Assembly (NCBI RefSeq): GCF_024213555.1
Contig: NZ_JANAVO010000009.1
Span: forward strand, 62,001 to 126,000
Length of the DNA stretch: 64,000 bases
Source of the DNA: Allokutzneria sp. A3M-2-11 16
GTDB lineage: Bacteria > Actinomycetota > Actinomycetes > Mycobacteriales > Pseudonocardiaceae
Direction: 5' to 3'
Part shown: in pieces, positions 43,394 to 63,500 of the stretch
Numbering within the stretch: position 1 is the stretch's first letter
Layout: every line of letters starts with the position of its first letter
Notes under the pieces: generated by a model
The model's database searches: none
What the model was told of the DNA's origin: nothing
What the model saw: only the letters and a program-made list of their open reading frames with translations
Made by a program: the position numbers and the translations under genes

Positions 43394-43399
43394 GTGGTT

Positions 43400-44494
43400 A
43401 TGCCCCTTGGGAAATATCTTGATGGGGTCGAGGATGCCGCTCTCGCCTCCGCGTGCCGGAAGTACATGGATCAGGTCCCGGAATGGGATTACCAGTACAT
43501 GGGTTCAGAGGTCGGTCCCCGGTTGGCGATGTCGCGTCGGAAAGCCGATCGGATGCTGTCGCGCGGCTTCGAGTTGACTGAGCGTCCGGCTGTCTTGCAG
43601 GCGATGGCCGAAGGCCGGATCGACGAAGGGAAGGCCCTACTGATCCTGGACCAGATCAGCGTCCTCTCCGAGATCCACAAGGCGATCGTCGAGGAGGATC
43701 TGCTGGCGTACGCGCAGACCCGCACCTACACCTCGGTGCGGCGGCACGCCCAGACGATGATCCACAAGCTGGACCCCGACGCCGCCCTGCGTCGCCACAA
43801 GAAGGCCACCAAGGAACGCGTGGTGGAGAAACGTGACCTTGACGATGGCATGTCCTCGCTCCGGTTCGTGGTGCCCGCGTTGGAGGGTGTGTTGATCTAT
43901 GACCGGATCGACAGGATCGCCCGCGCTCTGCCCAAGGATGACCGGACCCTGGACCAGAAGCGCGCCGACGTCGCGATGGATGTGTTGCTGGGCAAGGACA
44001 CCGGCGCTCCCCAAGGCGAAGTACGGGTCTACCTCACGATGCCCGTCACGAGTGTCATCGGCATGAACGATGACCCGGCGATGCTGCATGGGTACGGGCC
44101 GCTCCCGGCGGAGGTCGCGCGGGATGTCGTCGCTGGTGGGATCTGGAAGCGCATCCTGACTGACCCGGTGACGGGGATGGCGGAGGAGGTCAGTGATGTG
44201 TACCGGCCGACCGCGAAGCAGCGGGAACTCATCGCGGCCCGGTTCCCCAGGTGCACGGCCATCGGGTGTCAGCAGCCCGCGCACCGTTGCGACTTGGACC
44301 ATTGCTGCCGCTACGACGGGACCAACACGACGGTGAAGAACCTCCGGCCGAAGTGTCGTCATCACCACCGCATGAAGCACGAGTCGACCTGGCGCTGCGA
44401 GAACCTGCCGGACGGACGGCACATGTGGACCACGCCCAGCGGGGACGTCTACGAAACCGAACTGGAACCCATCGCCGAACCCGCACCGTTCTGA
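43400..44494 (+). CDS. DUF222/13E12-type HNH endonuclease
   Basis: A 364-residue protein. DUF222-like helical region at ~15-260, then an HNH nuclease domain near 285-330 with CDLDHCCRYDG, NLRPKCRHHHRMKH. These are multicopy in actinobacteria and behave like mobile accessory genes. No ribosome site precedes the ATG, and a TAGAAT box ends 6 nt upstream, so the mRNA is probably leaderless. It ends 72 bp before copy 4 of the palindromic repeat. Confidence 0.88.
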   Translation: MPLGKYLDGVEDAALASACRKYMDQVPEWDYQYMGSEVGPRLAMSRRKADRMLSRGFELTERPAVLQAMAEGRIDEGKALLILDQISVLSEIHKAIVEEDLLAYAQTRTYTSVRRHAQTMIHKLDPDAALRRHKKATKERVVEKRDLDDGMSSLRFVVPALEGVLIYDRIDRIARALPKDDRTLDQKRADVAMDVLLGKDTGAPQGEVRVYLTMPVTSVIGMNDDPAMLHGYGPLPAEVARDVVAGGIWKRILTDPVTGMAEEVSDVYRPTAKQRELIAARFPRCTAIGCQQPAHRCDLDHCCRYDGTNTTVKNLRPKCRHHHRMKHESTWRCENLPDGRHMWTTPSGDVYETELEPIAEPAPF

Positions 44495-45290: not shown

Positions 45291-45319
45291 TTGACGCGCC
45301 CGGAACCGTGGGCCAAGAT
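45291..45319 (+). promoter_or_regulatory. promoter of the leader-peptide element
   Basis: TTGACG (45291-45296), 17-nt spacer, CAAGAT (45314-45319), one of the best sigma-70-type promoters in the window. It is followed after 30 nt by a ribosome site and the 27-residue reading frame. Confidence 0.6.
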
Positions 45320-45349
45320 GAAATCAACGAACCGAACCGAGGAGCGGAC

Positions 45350-45433
45350 ATGACTGGCATGCGGGAGCGAGGGCAGCGCGACTGGCGACCGTCCGCGCTC
45401 TGGCCTCTGACCTGCGCCTACTCCCCACCATGA
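45350..45433 (+). CDS. 27-residue leader peptide candidate
   Basis: ATG 45350 with GAGGAG 5 nt upstream begins MTGMRERGQRDWRPSALW and ends in PP-stop at 45431-45433. It has two Trp codons and an Arg-Glu-Arg near the N-terminus, similar in layout to peptides that stall ribosomes. Its stop codon is inside the first hairpin (45429-45448) and a terminator follows. It is too short to be recognised by homology here. What it regulates is unclear, since only tRNA-type genes lie within 300 bp. Confidence 0.5.
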   Translation: MTGMRERGQRDWRPSALWPLTCAYSPP

Positions 45434-45448
45434 CCTGACCTGGTCATG
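45429..45448 (+). other. hairpin over the leader stop codon
   Basis: Stem CATGACC (45429-45435) / GGTCATG (45442-45448) with a 6-nt loop, covering the leader's stop codon. A ribosome stalled upstream or at the stop would alter it, as in attenuators. Confidence 0.5.
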
Positions 45449-45455
45449 ACACGGG

Positions 45456-45493
45456 AGCCGCCCATCGGGAAACCGATCCGGGCGGCTTTCTCT
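45456..45493 (+). terminator. intrinsic terminator after leader peptide
   Basis: Stem AGCCGCCC (45456-45463) with GGGCGGCT (45480-45487), extended by ATCGG/CCGAT around a GAAA loop and followed by TTTCTCT. It is the clearest Rho-independent terminator in the window. Confidence 0.75.
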
Positions 45494-45521
45494 ATTGAGC
45501 ACGCCCGGAATTCCTTTTCCT

Positions 45522-45591
45522 GCCGATGAGCTTTCGGAAGCGGAGCGGCCTCCAAAGCCGTTTCCCGGGGGTTCGAATCCCTCCATCGGTG
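45522..45591 (+). tRNA. tRNA-Trp-like (CCA anticodon), atypical D arm
   Basis: 70-nt cloverleaf: 7-bp acceptor GCCGATG/CATCGGT, anticodon stem GCGGC/GCCGT with loop CTCCAAA (CCA at 45552-45554), T stem GGGGG/CCCTC with TTCGAAT, discriminator G. The D arm is abnormal: U8 is missing, and the stem GCTT/AAGC closes a 4-nt loop TCGG. It may be a degenerate or specialised tRNA rather than a working one. Confidence 0.55.
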
Positions 45592-45595
45592 CTCT

Positions 45596-45669
45596 ACCCC
45601 CGTAGCTCAGCTGGACAGAGCGCCGCGCTACGAACGCGGAGGTCCCAGGTTCGAGTCCTGGCGGGGGTG
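45596..45669 (+). tRNA. tRNA-Arg (ACG)
   Basis: Canonical 74-nt cloverleaf: acceptor ACCCCCG/CGGGGGT, U8-A9, D stem GCTC/GAGC, anticodon stem CCGCG/CGCGG with loop CTACGAA (ACG), T stem CCAGG/CCTGG with TTCGAGT, discriminator G. CCA is not encoded. It reads CGN arginine codons after A34 deamination. Confidence 0.93.
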
Positions 45670-45706
45670 CTGGGCCGGAGCGCGCCTCGGGCGCTCCAGG
45701 CCCTCC

Positions 45707-45779
45707 CGGGTGCGAGGGGCATGGCGACCCCACCTGATTTGGGATCAGGAGTCACCGCGTTCGACTCGCGGGCATCCGA
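45707..45779 (+). tRNA. tRNA-Pro-like (TGG)
   Basis: 73-nt cloverleaf: acceptor CGGGTGC/GCATCCG (one G-T pair), positions 8-9 GA instead of the usual TA, D stem GGGG/CCCC with loop CATGGCGA, anticodon stem CCTGA/TCAGG with loop TTTGGGA (TGG), T stem CCGCG/CGCGG with TTCGACT, discriminator A as expected for proline. The missing U8 is unusual; it may be an extra or degenerate copy. Confidence 0.7.
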
Positions 45780-45894
45780 CTGCACACCCGTCCCACCAGC
45801 GCCGACGTGATCTTGAACGGCGTTGTCAGGGGTCGCCCGTACTGTCACCGGCGTTCCACCGACAAGGCGTGGAAGCCGGTGCACGGGAGATGGT

Positions 45895-54861: not shown

Positions 54862-57492
54862 CTAGACGGCAGGATCACGCAGCCAGAAACGCGCGCGCTG
54901 GAAGGGATACGTCGGCAGATCGACCCGACGCGCGCCGGTCCCGTCGAAGAACGCGGGCCAGTCGATGGCGACACCGTTGTTGTGCAGCAACGCAATCGCG
55001 AGAGTCGCCGAGTGCACCTCGGCGCAGTCCTCACGCAGGACCGGGACGAACGTGGCGTTCACGGTCACGCTGTCCGCGGCGGCCCGGGACAGCACATCGC
55101 CGTGTCCGATGTGGACGAACTTCGTGACACCTTCCGCTTCCAGAGCCTGAACGCCGTCGGCGAACAGGACCGTGTCCCGAAGCTGTCGCACCCAGTACGC
55201 CGGCGACATGAGCTGCGCCGCCGTCGCCATCTCACCGGTGACGGCCGAGACGATCTGCGTTGTCGGCTCGGCATAGGAAACGCTGCGAGCGACCGCGCCG
55301 AACTCCGCCAGCATCCCGTCGACCATCACCGAGTGGAAGGCGTGGGTGACCCGGAGCGGCTCCGTTTTCCGTCCCAGAGCGGCGAAGTGCTCGGCGACGC
55401 GTCGCGTGGCGGCGTCATCGCCGGCGATCACCACCGCGTCGGGGCCGTTGATCGCGGCGATGCCGACGCCATCGGCGAGCTGCGCGACGACCTCGGACTC
55501 GGTGGCCTGGACGGTGATCATCACGCCGTTGCGGGGCAACGCCCGCGCCAGGTTCTCGCGGGCGAGGACGAGCTTCGCCGCGTCTTCCAACGACCAGACA
55601 CCCGCCACGTGCGCGGCGGCCAGTTCTCCCTTCGAGTGGCCGAGCAGGAAGTCCGGCCGCACACCCCAGGACTCCAGCAGCCGGTACAGCGCGACCTCGA
55701 CCGCGAACCCGGTGTCCTCCGGCAGGTGCGCGCGGACCTCGGTGAAGGCCGAGGCGAAGACCGGGAACGTCGCACAGAGTTCGCGCCCCACGGTCGAACT
55801 CGTCTGCCCGCTGATCAGGAACGCAAGCGCGCCTTGGGTTATCTCGTCGCGCACGACATCCGCACCGGTTTCGCCCGCCGCGAGGAGCTGGAGCCCGGCG
55901 CGCACCTGATCGCGGTTCGAGGCGACGACCACGGCGCGATGCCTCAGCGAAGCACGCGTTGTCGCTAGCGAGAACGCGAGGTCGGCCGGGTCGCTCTCCG
56001 TCAGCGACGCCAGCTTCGTCGCCTGTGCGCGCAGCGCGTCCTCGGTCTGACCGGACAACACGTACGGCAGCACCCGGTCCGCGCCGCCGGCCGCAAGGGC
56101 TCGGCGATCCCCGGGCTCGGCCCCTTCAAGGATCACGTGGGCGTTGGTTCCGCTGACCGCGAAGGCCGAAACGGCAGCGCGGCGCGGCTTTCCCGTATCC
56201 GGCCAGGCGATCGGCTCGGTCAGCACCGAGACCGCACCGGAGGACCAGTCGACCAGCTCGGAAGGAGCCGTGGCGTGCAGCGTCTTCGGCAGCACGCCGT
56301 ACCGCATGGCCTGCACAGTCTTGATCACGCCCGCCACGCCCGCCGCCGCCTGGGTGTGACTGATGTTGGACTTCACCGAACCAAGCCACAGCGGTGCCGA
56401 ACGGTCCTGCCCGTAGGTCGCCAGCAACGCCTGCGCCTCAATGGAATCGCCGAGCACCGTGCCGGTACCGTGCGCTTCGACCACGTCGATGTCTGATGTG
56501 GACAGTCCAGCGCTGGTCAATGCCTGCCGGATCAACCGCTGTTGCGACGGCCCGTTCGGTGCGAAAAGGGAACTGCTCGCGCCATCGTGGTTCACCGCGC
56601 TGCCGCGGATCACCGCGAGCACCTCGTGCCCGTTACGCCGTGCGTCGGACAGTCGCTCCAGCAGCACCATGCCGGCACCTTCGCCCCAGCCCATGCCATC
56701 GGCGGAGGCGGAGAACGCCTTGCACCGGCCGTCCGTGGCCAGCCCGCGCTGCCGGGAGGACTCGACGAACGGGCCCGGCGTGGCCATCACCGTGACCCCG
56801 CCCGCCAACGCGAGCGGGCACTCACCGGAGCGCAGCGCGCGCATGGCGAGGTGGATCGCGACAAGCGAGGAGGCGCACGCCGCGTCGATGGAAGCCACGG
56901 GTCCCTTCAGGCCGAAGGTGTACGCGACGCGGCCGGAGGCGACGCTTCCGGTGCTCGCGGCGCCGAGCATGCCCTCGAACCCCTCCGGTGCCCGCGAGAG
57001 CCTTGAGGCGTAGTCGTTGTAGAAGATCCCGGTGAACACGCCGATCTCGCTGCCCTTCAACGACATCGGGTCGAGGCCGGCGCGCTCGAAGACCTCCCAG
57101 GTGACCTCCAGCAGCAACCGTTGCTGCGGGTCGATCGCCTGCGCCTCGTGCGGGGGGATGCCGAAGGGCGCCGGGTCGAAGTCCGCGGCGTCGTGCAGGA
57201 ACCCGCCGTGCCGCACGTAGGAAGTGCCCCGGTGGTCGGGATCCGGGTGGTACAGCGACTCCACGTCCCAGTCCCGGTCGGCCGGGAACTCCGAGATCGC
57301 GTCGGTGCCGTCGGCGACCAGGCGCCACAGGTCCTCCGGGGACCGGACGCCGCCGGGGTAGCGGCAACCCATGCCGACGATCGCGATCGGCTCGAAGTCC
57401 CGCTGCCGCGCGTCGTCCAGGCGGCGCCGGGTCTCGCGCAGCTCCGCGGTCAGCCGCTTCAGATAGTCGAGGTACTGCTCTTCGGTCGCCAC
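54862..57492 (-). CDS. type I polyketide synthase, KS-AT protein without ACP
   Basis: An 876-residue modular PKS protein: N-terminal coiled-coil docking helix (1-32), KS (~34-460), AT (~560-860). The KS has Cys in DAACASS, HGTGT and SNISHTQ, so the catalytic Cys-His-His set is kept. The AT has GHSKG and HAFH (malonyl type), but the GQGSQ oxyanion motif is GQTSS and ~20 residues before FAVEVALY are missing relative to the upstream module. The protein ends after the post-AT linker: no KR, ACP or thioesterase. GTG start. It follows the upstream PKS gene by 15 nt. Confidence 0.9.
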
Positions 57493-60500: not shown

Positions 60501-63500
60501 CGACCCCGCCGACGAACTCCCCGAACTCCGCGAGCATGTCGTCCATGAGCACCGAGTGGAAGGCGTGCGAGACGCTGAGCCGCTTGGTTCCGCGGCCCCT
60601 CTCCCGGAAGTGCTCGGCGATCCGCACGGCCGCGGCCTCGTCCCCCGAGACCACCACCGAGGCCGGGCCGTTGACCGCGCCGATGCCCACGCGCGCGGTG
60701 AGGTGCGGCAGGACCTCGTCCTCGCTCGCCTGGACCACGATCATCGCGCCGCCGGTGGGCAGCTCCTGCATCAACCGGGCCCGGGCCGACACCACGCGGG
60801 CCGCGTCCGGCAGCGACCACAGCCCCGCGACGTGCGCGGCGGCCAGCTCGCCGATGGAGTGCCCGGCCACGAAATCCGGTCGTACACCGAAGGATTCGAG
60901 GAGCCGGTACAGCGCGACCTCGACGGCGAAGAGCGCGGGCTGGGCGTTGCCGGTCTGGTTCAGCGCGTCGGCGTCGACGCCGAAGACGATCTCGCGGGTG
61001 CCCGGCAGGTGCGCGCAGACCTCGTCGAAGGCGCTCGCGAACACCGGATGCGCCTCGTATAGCCCGCGTCCCATGGCCAGGCGCTGCGATCCCTGGCCGG
61101 TGAACAGCACGGCGAGCCGACCATCGCCCGCCTGCCCGCGCACAACTCCCGGGGCGGCGTCACCGGCCGCGAGCGCGCGAACCCCAGCGAGCGGATCGGC
61201 GCCCAGGACGACCGCGCGGTGGTCGAACAACGCGCGCCCGGTGGCCAGCGAGTACCCGACGTCGGCGAGGCGCACCGCCGCATCACCGTCCACAAAGGAC
61301 AGAAGCTTCCGCGCCTGTTCCCGCAACGCGTTCGCGGTCCTGCCCGAGAGCACCCAGGGCACCGCGTCGACCTCGCTCTCCGGCACCGCGTCCTGGGCCG
61401 GAGCCTGCTCGATGATCACGTGGGCGTTGGTGCCGGAGATGCCGAAGGAGGAGACACCGGCGCGGCGCGGGCGGCCCGTCTCCGGCCAGCCCACGGCCTC
61501 GGTCAACAGCGAGACCGCGCCGGTGGACCAGTCGACCTGCGGGGACGGCTCGGTGATGTGCAGGCTCTTCGGCAGCACGCCGTGCCGCATGGCCTGCACC
61601 ATCTTGATCACGCCCGCCACCCCGGACGCGGCCTGGGTGTGGCCGATGTTGGACTTCACCGAGCCCAGCCACAACGGCGTCGAACGATCCTGTCCGTAGG
61701 TCGCCAGCAACGCCTGCGCCTCGATCGGGTCGCCCAGCCTCGTCCCGGTGCCGTGCGCCTCGACGGCGTCGACCTCCCGCGGGATGAGCCGCGCGCTCGC
61801 CAGCGCCTGCTTGATCACTCGTTGCTGCGACGGGCCGTTCGGGGCGGTCAGGCCGCTCGACGCGCCGTCCTGGTTCACCGCGCTGCCACGAAGGACGGCG
61901 AGGACCGGGTGACCGTTGCGCTCGGCGTCGGAAAGGCGTTCCAGCACCAGCATTCCGGCCCCCTCCCCCCACGCCGTGCCGTCCGCCGTCGCGGAGAACG
62001 CCTTGCAGTGGCCGTCCGGGGCCAGCCCGCGCTGCCTGCTGAACACGACGAACGAGTGCGGGTTGGACATGACCGTGACGCCACCCGCCAGCGCGAGCGA
62101 ACACTCACCCGTCAGCAGCGACCGCGCGGCGAGGTGCAGTGCCACCAACGACGACGAGCAGGCGGTGTCGACGGAGATCGCGGGCCCTTCCAAGCCGAAC
62201 GTGTAGGACACCCGGCCGGAGAGAACGCTGCTGGAGGTGCCCGTGGCGAGGAAGCCCTCGACGTCCGTGGGGGCACCGGCCGGACCCGAGGAGTAGTCGC
62301 TGTAGGAGACCCCGGCGAACACACCGGTCGAGCTGCCGCGCAACGAGGCCGGGTCGATCCCGGCCCGCTCCATCGCCTCCCAGCAGACCTCCAGCAGCAC
62401 CCGCTGCTGCGGGTCCATGGCCAGCGCTTCCCGTGGCGAGATGCCGAAGAAGCCGGCGTCGAACTCCCCGGCGTCGTGCAGGAAACCGCCCGCGCTGACG
62501 TAGGAGGTGCCCGGCCGGTCCGGATCGGGGTGGAACAACGACTCCAGGTCCCAGCCGCGATCGGCCGGGAACCCCGAGATCGCGTGCTCGCCCGCGGTGA
62601 CCAGGCGCCACAGGTCCTCCGGCGAGCCGACCCCGCCGGGGTACCGGCAGCTCATCGCCACGATCGCGATCGGCTCGTCCGCGGGCCGCGGGTCACCGGC
62701 GGGCTCCGGCGGCCGCGGATCGGCCGAGCCGTCGAGCAGTTCCGCACGGAGGTAACCGACCAGCGCGATCGGTGTGGGGTAGTCGAACAGCAGCGTCGAC
62801 GGCAGGCGCAGCCCTGTCGCGGTGCTCAGGCGGTTGCGCAGCTCGACCGCCGTCAACGAGTCGAACCCGATGTCCAGGAAGCCCCGGTCGGCCGTCACGT
62901 TCGCCGGCGTGAGGTGCCCGAGCACGACGGAGACGTGCGTCCGCACCAGGTCCAGCAGCGACCGGTCCTGCTCGGGCCCGGCCAGCGCGGAAAGTTCTCG
63001 GCTGAGCGAGAGGCCCTGGACCTCGGCGTCCCGGGCGGTAGGACGAGCGGTGGGCCGGGCGGGGCGGGCCAGTCCGTGCAGCAACGGGGAAAGCGCGCGC
63101 AGCCGCGGGATGTCCAGCTTGACCGGGACGGCCACGGCCTCGCCCACGGCGTGTGCCAGATCGAAAAGCTCGGTCCCCTCCTCGGCGGTGAGCACGGCGA
63201 CCCCGGACTCGCTCGTCCTGGCCAGATCGGCTTCGGTCAGCGCGCTGCCCATGCCTTCGGCCCACAGCCCCCAGGCCAGCGACTGACCGACGAGACCGCG
63301 CGCGCGGCGATGCTGCGCGAGTGCGTCCAGAAAGCCGTTCGCCGCGGCGTAGTTGGCCTGGCCGGGGCTCCCGAGCAACCCGGCCGCCGAGGAGAACAGC
63401 ACGAACAGTGACAGGTCGAAGCCTTCGGTCAGCTCGTGCAGGTGCCACGCGGCGTCGATCTTCGGCCGGAGCACCCGATCGACCCGTTCCGGGGTCAATG

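Follow-up and report, generated by a model that had tools for sequence, protein, structure and literature searches.

What does a leader peptide followed by a terminator control when the genes directly behind it encode tRNAs? The question is raised by an element in the Allokutzneria window (the whole stretch of DNA analysed, 64,000 nucleotides long), which a first-pass annotation had read as a classic attenuator with no obvious regulated gene, adding that it might perhaps act on the tRNAs. From the arrangement of the sequence and its recurrence in related genomes, we consider it very probable that the element is a leader-peptide attenuator through which an accessory tRNA array is controlled in response to how well the cell is supplied with the tRNAs encoded by that array. 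The most likely targets of regulation are the tRNAs themselves, and by its anatomy the mechanism would be classical attenuation directed at tRNA genes.

A leader frame and two overlapping hairpins

A promoter, a ribosome site, a 27-residue frame with two Trp codons, a hairpin over its stop codon and a terminator all lie where the first-pass annotation had placed them (Table 1), as does the tRNA-Trp with a CCA anticodon, which starts 28 nt beyond position 45493. Two features had been missed. The outer helix of the hairpin over the stop codon, here called P1, overlaps the 5' arm of the terminator, and tRNA-Arg and tRNA-Pro complete the array; the Trp, Arg and Pro codons of the leader match all three tRNAs. 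Besides its fixed Pro-Pro end, this leader contains two Trp (residues 12 and 18), four Arg and two Pro. Using a promoter consensus derived from these same loci, a TTGACG/CATGAT-like pair (at least 9 of 12 bases) was found upstream of 37 of 51 leaders, each representing one cluster of peptides, compared to a mean of 2.8 and a maximum of 8 in 20 shuffles.

Table 1. Features of the element and its tRNA array, in window coordinates.
Feature	Position	Strand	Basis and remarks
Promoter: TTGACG (45291-45296), 17-base spacer, CAAGAT (45314-45319)	45291..45319	+	read directly
Ribosome binding site AGGAG	45340..45344	+	read directly; script pick, 5 matching bases
Leader peptide frame MTGMRERGQRDWRPSALWPLTCAYSPP, 27 residues, ATG at 45350	45350..45433	+	read directly
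P1, proposed antiterminator	45421..45457	+	fold; pairing and both-sided changes in 48 sequences
P1 outer helix CTCCC/GGGAG	45421-45425 with 45453-45457	+	overlaps terminator 5' arm
P1 inner helix CATGACC/GGTCATG	45429-45435 with 45442-45448	+	5' arm contains stop codon TGA, 45431-45433
Intrinsic terminator AGCCGCCC ... GGGCGGCT, hairpin 45456-45487 plus T-rich tail	45456..45496	+	sequence, pairing, fold
tRNA-Trp (cca)	45522..45592	+	ARAGORN, Rfam; 53% identity to housekeeping tRNA of same anticodon
tRNA-Arg (acg)	45596..45670	+	ARAGORN, Rfam; 67% identity to housekeeping tRNA of same anticodon
tRNA-Pro (tgg)	45707..45780	+	ARAGORN alone, below Rfam gathering score; 59% identity to housekeeping tRNA of same anticodon

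P1 consists of an outer helix, in general GGCTCCC with GGGAGCC, and an inner helix that contains the stop codon. Its pairs are formed in 91.9% of cells across 48 sequences, and those of the terminator in 97.4%. Both-sided changes occur in 31 cells of P1 (shuffle mean 12.5, at most 14 in slid controls) and in 17 cells of the terminator (4.1 in shuffles, at most 5 in slid controls). Counted by pair, three P1 pairs carry a both-sided change, a number reached in 32 of 500 shuffles, and two terminator pairs do so, a count within the range of the slid controls (up to 4). In the window as in the other sequences, P1 and the terminator share bases, the 3' arm of the former running into the 5' end of the latter, and so the two hairpins can never be complete together.

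In 44 folded leaders, median energies are -23.1 kcal/mol for P1, -24.9 kcal/mol for the terminator and -14.5 kcal/mol for a terminator deprived of its GAGCC, and the whole-state energies of the P1 and terminator states differ by a median of 0.25 kcal/mol (n = 44). Overlap, pairing and energies together describe an intrinsic terminator and an antiterminator that exclude each other. Without a ribosome, the P1 state is the lower in 20 of these leaders and the terminator state in 24; the window belongs to the latter group, by a margin of 2.4 kcal/mol. In leaders of that group, P1 could prevail only by being the first to fold. A ribosome placed on the stop codon leaves the terminator as the sole state in the energy model.

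We propose that the ribosome would translate a short leader whose codons inventory the array (Trp, Arg and Pro in the window). When the listed aminoacyl-tRNAs are plentiful, it would reach the stop codon in the 5' arm of P1 and hold P1 open, upon which the terminator would close and no array tRNAs would be made. When one of the listed tRNAs runs short, or when translation stops or does not occur at all, the ribosome would stay at least seven codons upstream; P1 would fold first and seize the GAGCC required at the base of the terminator, allowing RNA polymerase to read through into the tRNA genes. Once expressed and charged, the new tRNAs would allow the leader to be translated again, completing a feedback loop. 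This suggests that Amycolatopsis-related soil bacteria make spare tRNAs when the cell lacks exactly those tRNAs, with divergent copies presumably standing in for the depleted ones. The attenuator idea of the first-pass annotation is well supported, given that its parts are present, that P1 and the terminator overlap and that the frame is kept (see below).

The same two hairpins could be read with the opposite logic, such that good translation of the leader switches the array on and stalling switches it off, and the slightly greater stability of the terminator without a ribosome in 24 of the 44 leaders would agree with this. We regard such a scheme as very unlikely, since a ribosome at the stop codon covers the 5' arm of P1 and only the terminator remains, and since the listed codons break off six codons before the stop, which fits a scheme in which a stalled ribosome has to spare P1.

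Recurrence ahead of tRNA genes

Attenuation acting on the tRNAs is supported by where the element recurs. A DNA search with the whole element matched all 60 related genomes somewhere, mostly through the tRNA-Arg part alone; in several, leader matches adjoin tRNA genes, and a second copy of the element is found in the window's own genome, ahead of seven tRNAs. A pattern of the two hairpin parts alone, scanned through a public genome collection, occurs in 37 places, 35 of which carry titles of genera that we take to be Pseudonocardiaceae. A same-strand tRNA lies within 400 nt in 35 of the 37; the two exceptions are L076, which has a leader and no called tRNA, and L085, which has no leader frame and is probably a chance match. 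The covariance model R1, built from 48 sequences, has matches with E <= 0.01 in 75 of 200 genomes from the family, some of them weak. Of 122 R1 matches listed, we fetched 120 (G090:C9:275293 and G146:C5:166513 were omitted, and further weak matches were left aside), and 105 of these have a tRNA on the same strand within 500 nt, with about 15 lacking a called tRNA. Homologous leader-terminator pairs before tRNA genes, a search that the first-pass annotation had proposed, are thus found at 35 of 37 pattern places and 105 of 120 model matches. With the tRNA array as so recurrent a neighbour, the statement that no regulated gene was obvious no longer holds, and the accompanying guess at the tRNAs gains good support.

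The first-pass annotation had also made its reading depend on conservation of the 27-residue frame. A predicted frame with a ribosome site that ends in the hairpin is kept in 111 of the 120 R1 matches, but the sequence of the peptide itself is not conserved. Because of this, we rejected a nascent-chain stalling peptide, of which Arg-Glu-Arg near the N-terminus had been thought reminiscent: the peptides diverge widely (130 unique sequences in 51 clusters), there is no conserved arrest sequence among them, and only their content and the end encoded by P1 are kept.

The first tRNA starts at a median of 28 nt past the end of the R1 model (n = 105), which leaves little space for a separate promoter, and in the upper quartile the distance is 86 nt or more. 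At those more distant loci a promoter would fit, and TTGACA-like sequences can be seen by inspection past the terminator at some loci, as one would expect if leader and terminator were a separate small gene and the tRNAs had promoters of their own, the shared neighbourhood and matching content having been inherited together by chance or otherwise. However, the gap in the window equals the short median, and a separate gene leaves the isotype match and its positional onset, both described below, unaccounted for. We therefore hold this explanation to be highly improbable and retain control of the array by the leader.

Fourteen R1 loci without a called tRNA were searched with Rfam at E <= 0.5, which gave tRNA matches in three (L197, L222 and L244). 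At L222 and L244, both in genome G186, group II intron matches lie downstream, near the tRNA matches, and these loci look as though an intron had inserted into the tRNA array. At L160, L170 and L172, leaders with P1 and terminator have no tRNA nearby, and none by Rfam at E <= 0.5; they could precede divergent tRNAs or serve another target.

Besides tRNAs, Rfam recognized no known RNA family at the site of the element. A T-box riboswitch was rejected, as Rfam at its gathering score gives four matches in the window and no T-box among them. T-box riboswitches resemble the proposed element in sensing tRNA charging and in acting on termination or translation; they bind uncharged tRNA directly, whereas the window element would use a translated leader. 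We also set aside an origin of the window element from phages or plasmids, since no viral contig contained the exact hairpin pattern and blastn of the element against plasmid and phage collections gave no match, searches that leave room for weaker similarity.

Confinement of the element to one family was an idea that we dropped. In a 296-genome sample of the class, R1 matches outside the family are weak (19 loci in 18 genomes), yet long tRNA arrays follow three of these 19 loci. DNA searches around two of the three led to further loci in families labelled f31 and f15, and two other actinobacterial families have related designs. The f15 leaders end mostly in Gly-Trp-Arg-Arg or similar, and in three loci that were folded, the last bases of the leader can pair with the 5' arm of the terminator before its 3' arm is made.

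Leader codons and the tRNAs of the array

The window's own genome contains five arrays preceded by leaders, with 15 tRNAs in total: MTGMRERGQRDWRPSALWPLTCAYSPP precedes Trp, Arg and Pro; MDMRKRGTGRQYVPAVVVDVCPSYDISRLSQQERLPAMT precedes Tyr, Ser, Ile, Ser, Val, Val and Met; MVGMQRIDLLCCRPGSPP precedes Cys; MTKMRKRSGSPVA precedes Lys; and MNTTQLLSLQLLLPAASST precedes Leu, Leu and Gln. Leader MTQSRTQELLLLLLLLSCADSPP in another genome precedes Leu and Leu, and leader MPNVIDTAVFPEPERACSPP, again in another genome, precedes Asp, Pro, Glu and Val. The own-genome arrays on C21 and C26 stood outside the main match tests and were read afterwards, one match having been too weak for the fetched list and one leader having been missed by the frame picker.

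For the main tests, 174 places were handled, and the 153 with both a frame and an array that begins within 500 nt yielded the 130 unique peptides and 51 clusters, places fetched twice under different names being removed as duplicates by peptide. Frames were picked blind to the array, and the start and the last three residues were excluded from content counts. In the 51 cluster representatives, the share of residues that belong to the leader's own array is 0.340, vs 0.208 +- 0.011 with swapped arrays (z 11.7, p 1/5001); of the array isotypes, 93.5% are present in their own leader vs 69.6% after swapping. In these representatives, z lies between -1.3 and 1.6 for the two shifted frames (+1, +2) and for the reverse strand; when all 130 peptides are used, related ones included, z is 18.5 in the true frame and 3.1 in one reverse frame. 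Since the idea of a match arose from loci that we had viewed, a held-out set was formed from 29 clusters unlike those leaders, and it gives 0.289 vs 0.169 (p 1e-4), with p 0.02 in frame +1 and p 0.37 in frame +2. Swapping arrays inside single genomes (95 loci, 34 genomes) gives 0.381 vs 0.230 (p 2e-4), which rules out genome-specific composition as the cause of the match.

Finer contrasts point the same way. Within groups of similar leaders, those that have a given tRNA contain more of its codons in 37 contrasts and fewer in four, with four ties. Synonymous codon choice tracks the anticodon as well (p 1e-4, for unique peptides and for representatives): TTG and TTA make up 9 of 27 Leu codons before arrays with caa only, 2 of 190 before arrays that read CTN only, and 0 of 12 before arrays with both kinds of anticodon. 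The leaders are accordingly rich, in the true frame, in codons for the amino acids served by the genes behind them, as attenuators are. Asn is nearly unenriched (0.020 vs 0.018). Roughly two thirds of the residues in leaders fall outside the leader's own array, a part of which may be explained by missed tRNAs. We regard this sequence-based evidence for matching between leaders and arrays as strong.

The match also bears on a broader explanation, in which the element is a general translation-stress attenuator: any arrest of the leader, by antibiotic or starvation, would induce the array, and the content of the leader would be incidental. The anatomy would indeed react to any arrest upstream of P1, and an array of Anabaena is induced by translation-targeting antibiotics (PMC10272220). 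That leader content tracks the isotypes of the array in the true frame only, and does so within genomes and within groups of similar leaders, makes this explanation unlikely in our view and favors a leader that senses the tRNAs it lists.

Where in the leader the matching codons lie is informative as well. In unique peptides, the match ratio is 1.1 for codons 1-6 counted back from the stop and about twofold for codons 7-12. Matching is absent from the last six codons partly because P1 pairing fixes about the last four; codons 5 and 6, which lie outside P1, show at most a small excess, matching in 31 and 30 of 130 peptides vs 23.5 and 27.2 expected. A ribosome waiting six codons or fewer from the stop would cover P1, and so only earlier codons can act; an onset of matching seven codons before the stop is what the ribosome footprint predicts. 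With the exception of the fixed Pro-Pro end, the Trp, Arg and Pro codons of the window leader lie at least nine codons before the stop.

Natural contrasts are found among close relatives. The same-genus orthologue L034 is syntenic with the window (90.7% identity over 8 kb downstream); in its array tRNA-Arg and tRNA-Pro are called and tRNA-Trp is not, and its leader, MTSTPKRPTQRRRPVAVVVTRACSPP, has no Trp codon. In another group of leaders, four that precede Arg alone contain RRRR, and two that precede Arg and Cys contain RRCC.

In f15, leader and array match in 19 leaders at 0.419 vs 0.379 (p 8e-4) and in 11 distinct types at 0.449 vs 0.378 (p 7e-4), a match that is weaker than in the first family and in which many leaders are related to one another. 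The test took 19 of 29 loci, with the frame of L292 taken from an earlier reading and the second frame offered used for L306. Eight omitted loci lacked a called tRNA or a frame; the other omissions were L294, whose frame lies beyond the picker's range, and L308, which has one tRNA in the joined array. With L294 and L308 added, the 21 leaders give 0.411 vs 0.370 (p 3.5e-4).

Accessory tRNAs and known systems

Outside the arrays, the window's genome has 50 tRNAs (ARAGORN), Trp(cca), Arg(acg) and Pro(tgg) included, which form its housekeeping set. The arrays are clusters of extra tRNA genes alongside this complete set, like the supernumerary array of Anabaena, and the 14 of their tRNAs that were compared share 45-86% identity with the housekeeping tRNAs that carry the same anticodon. 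The window tRNA-Trp is unusual, with an Rfam score of 35.5 bits; we treat it as a putative functional tRNA and count it as a weak point of our best explanation.

Measured against the housekeeping loops of one genome, the window's own, the anticodon loop deviates in 331 of 454 distinct array tRNAs from all loci, and 124 of the 331 have A37 in place of G37. A change from G37 to A37 would abolish a usual methylation site. In the window tRNA-Arg(acg), CTACGAA replaces CTACGGA, and 45 of 51 Arg(acg) array tRNAs have this loop; loops are mostly unchanged for anticodons such as cga, ctt, gca and tgg. Phage tRNAs have been reported with loop changes predicted to evade tRNA-cutting defences (PMC10264068), which makes the same purpose for array tRNAs a lead and not a result.

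In actinobacteria, leader-peptide attenuators have been described for trp, ilvB and the synthetase genes trpS2 and leuS (PMC1262725). Such attenuators of amino acid operons share with our element a short leader in which codons for the sensed amino acid abound, a terminator and antiterminator with sequence in common, and a stop codon that lies close to or inside the hairpins. Their targets are protein-coding genes for supplying or charging amino acids, and what they sense is a single amino acid or a few related ones, whereas here the output would be tRNA genes and the leader enumerates the isotypes, be it one or many, found in its own array. The main text of that paper nowhere uses the phrase "tRNA gene".

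The trn operon, or L-array, of Anabaena sp. PCC 7120 is likewise a supernumerary array beside a full housekeeping set, and it is induced upon impaired translation (PMC10272220, PMC9938897); for the window array, induction is a prediction. In Anabaena, the repressor protein TrcR acts on the promoter, whereas our proposal is a switch made of RNA that works through a leader peptide; PMC10272220 mentions neither "attenuation" nor "leader peptide". The tRNA array units of mycobacteria, phages and plasmids also comprise clustered, extra and divergent actinobacterial tRNA genes and have been discussed as a possible anti-defence device, and the searched texts of PMC5966550 and PMC12803027 make no mention of a leader, promoter or attenuator for them. 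Among the titles and abstract openings listed in searches of an open-access library, none describes an attenuator or leader peptide placed before tRNA arrays.

If our explanation is true, a feedback loop on tRNA supply would be legible in DNA, in which the product, tRNA, is what the leader codons test. With product and sensed item being the same, why and when bacteria keep and use divergent extra tRNAs becomes directly testable. Such a loop would bear on tRNA depletion in phage defence, its leaders would predict the tRNA content of arrays, including tRNAs overlooked by gene finders, and as a tool it would offer a modular way to report when a chosen aminoacyl-tRNA runs short. A wider proposal, which we put forward tentatively and hold to be somewhat short of probable, is that actinobacteria hold modular, self-regulated sets of spare tRNAs whose leaders spell the isotypes they govern. 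If a listed tRNA were lost, whether to toxins that cut tRNA, to nucleases of phage or of phage defence, or to inhibitors of synthetases, a replacement would be summoned whose altered body and anticodon loop resist the agent. Leader and array would co-evolve, gain or loss of a tRNA rewriting the leader, and the principle would extend to three or more families that differ in hairpin design.

Elsewhere in the window, a 366-residue frame at 43394-44494 seems to resemble the actinobacterial DUF222/HNH repeat proteins, and at 56371-56439 and 61654-61722 Rfam finds matches to ASpks, a family of antisense RNAs whose name comes from polyketide synthase genes.
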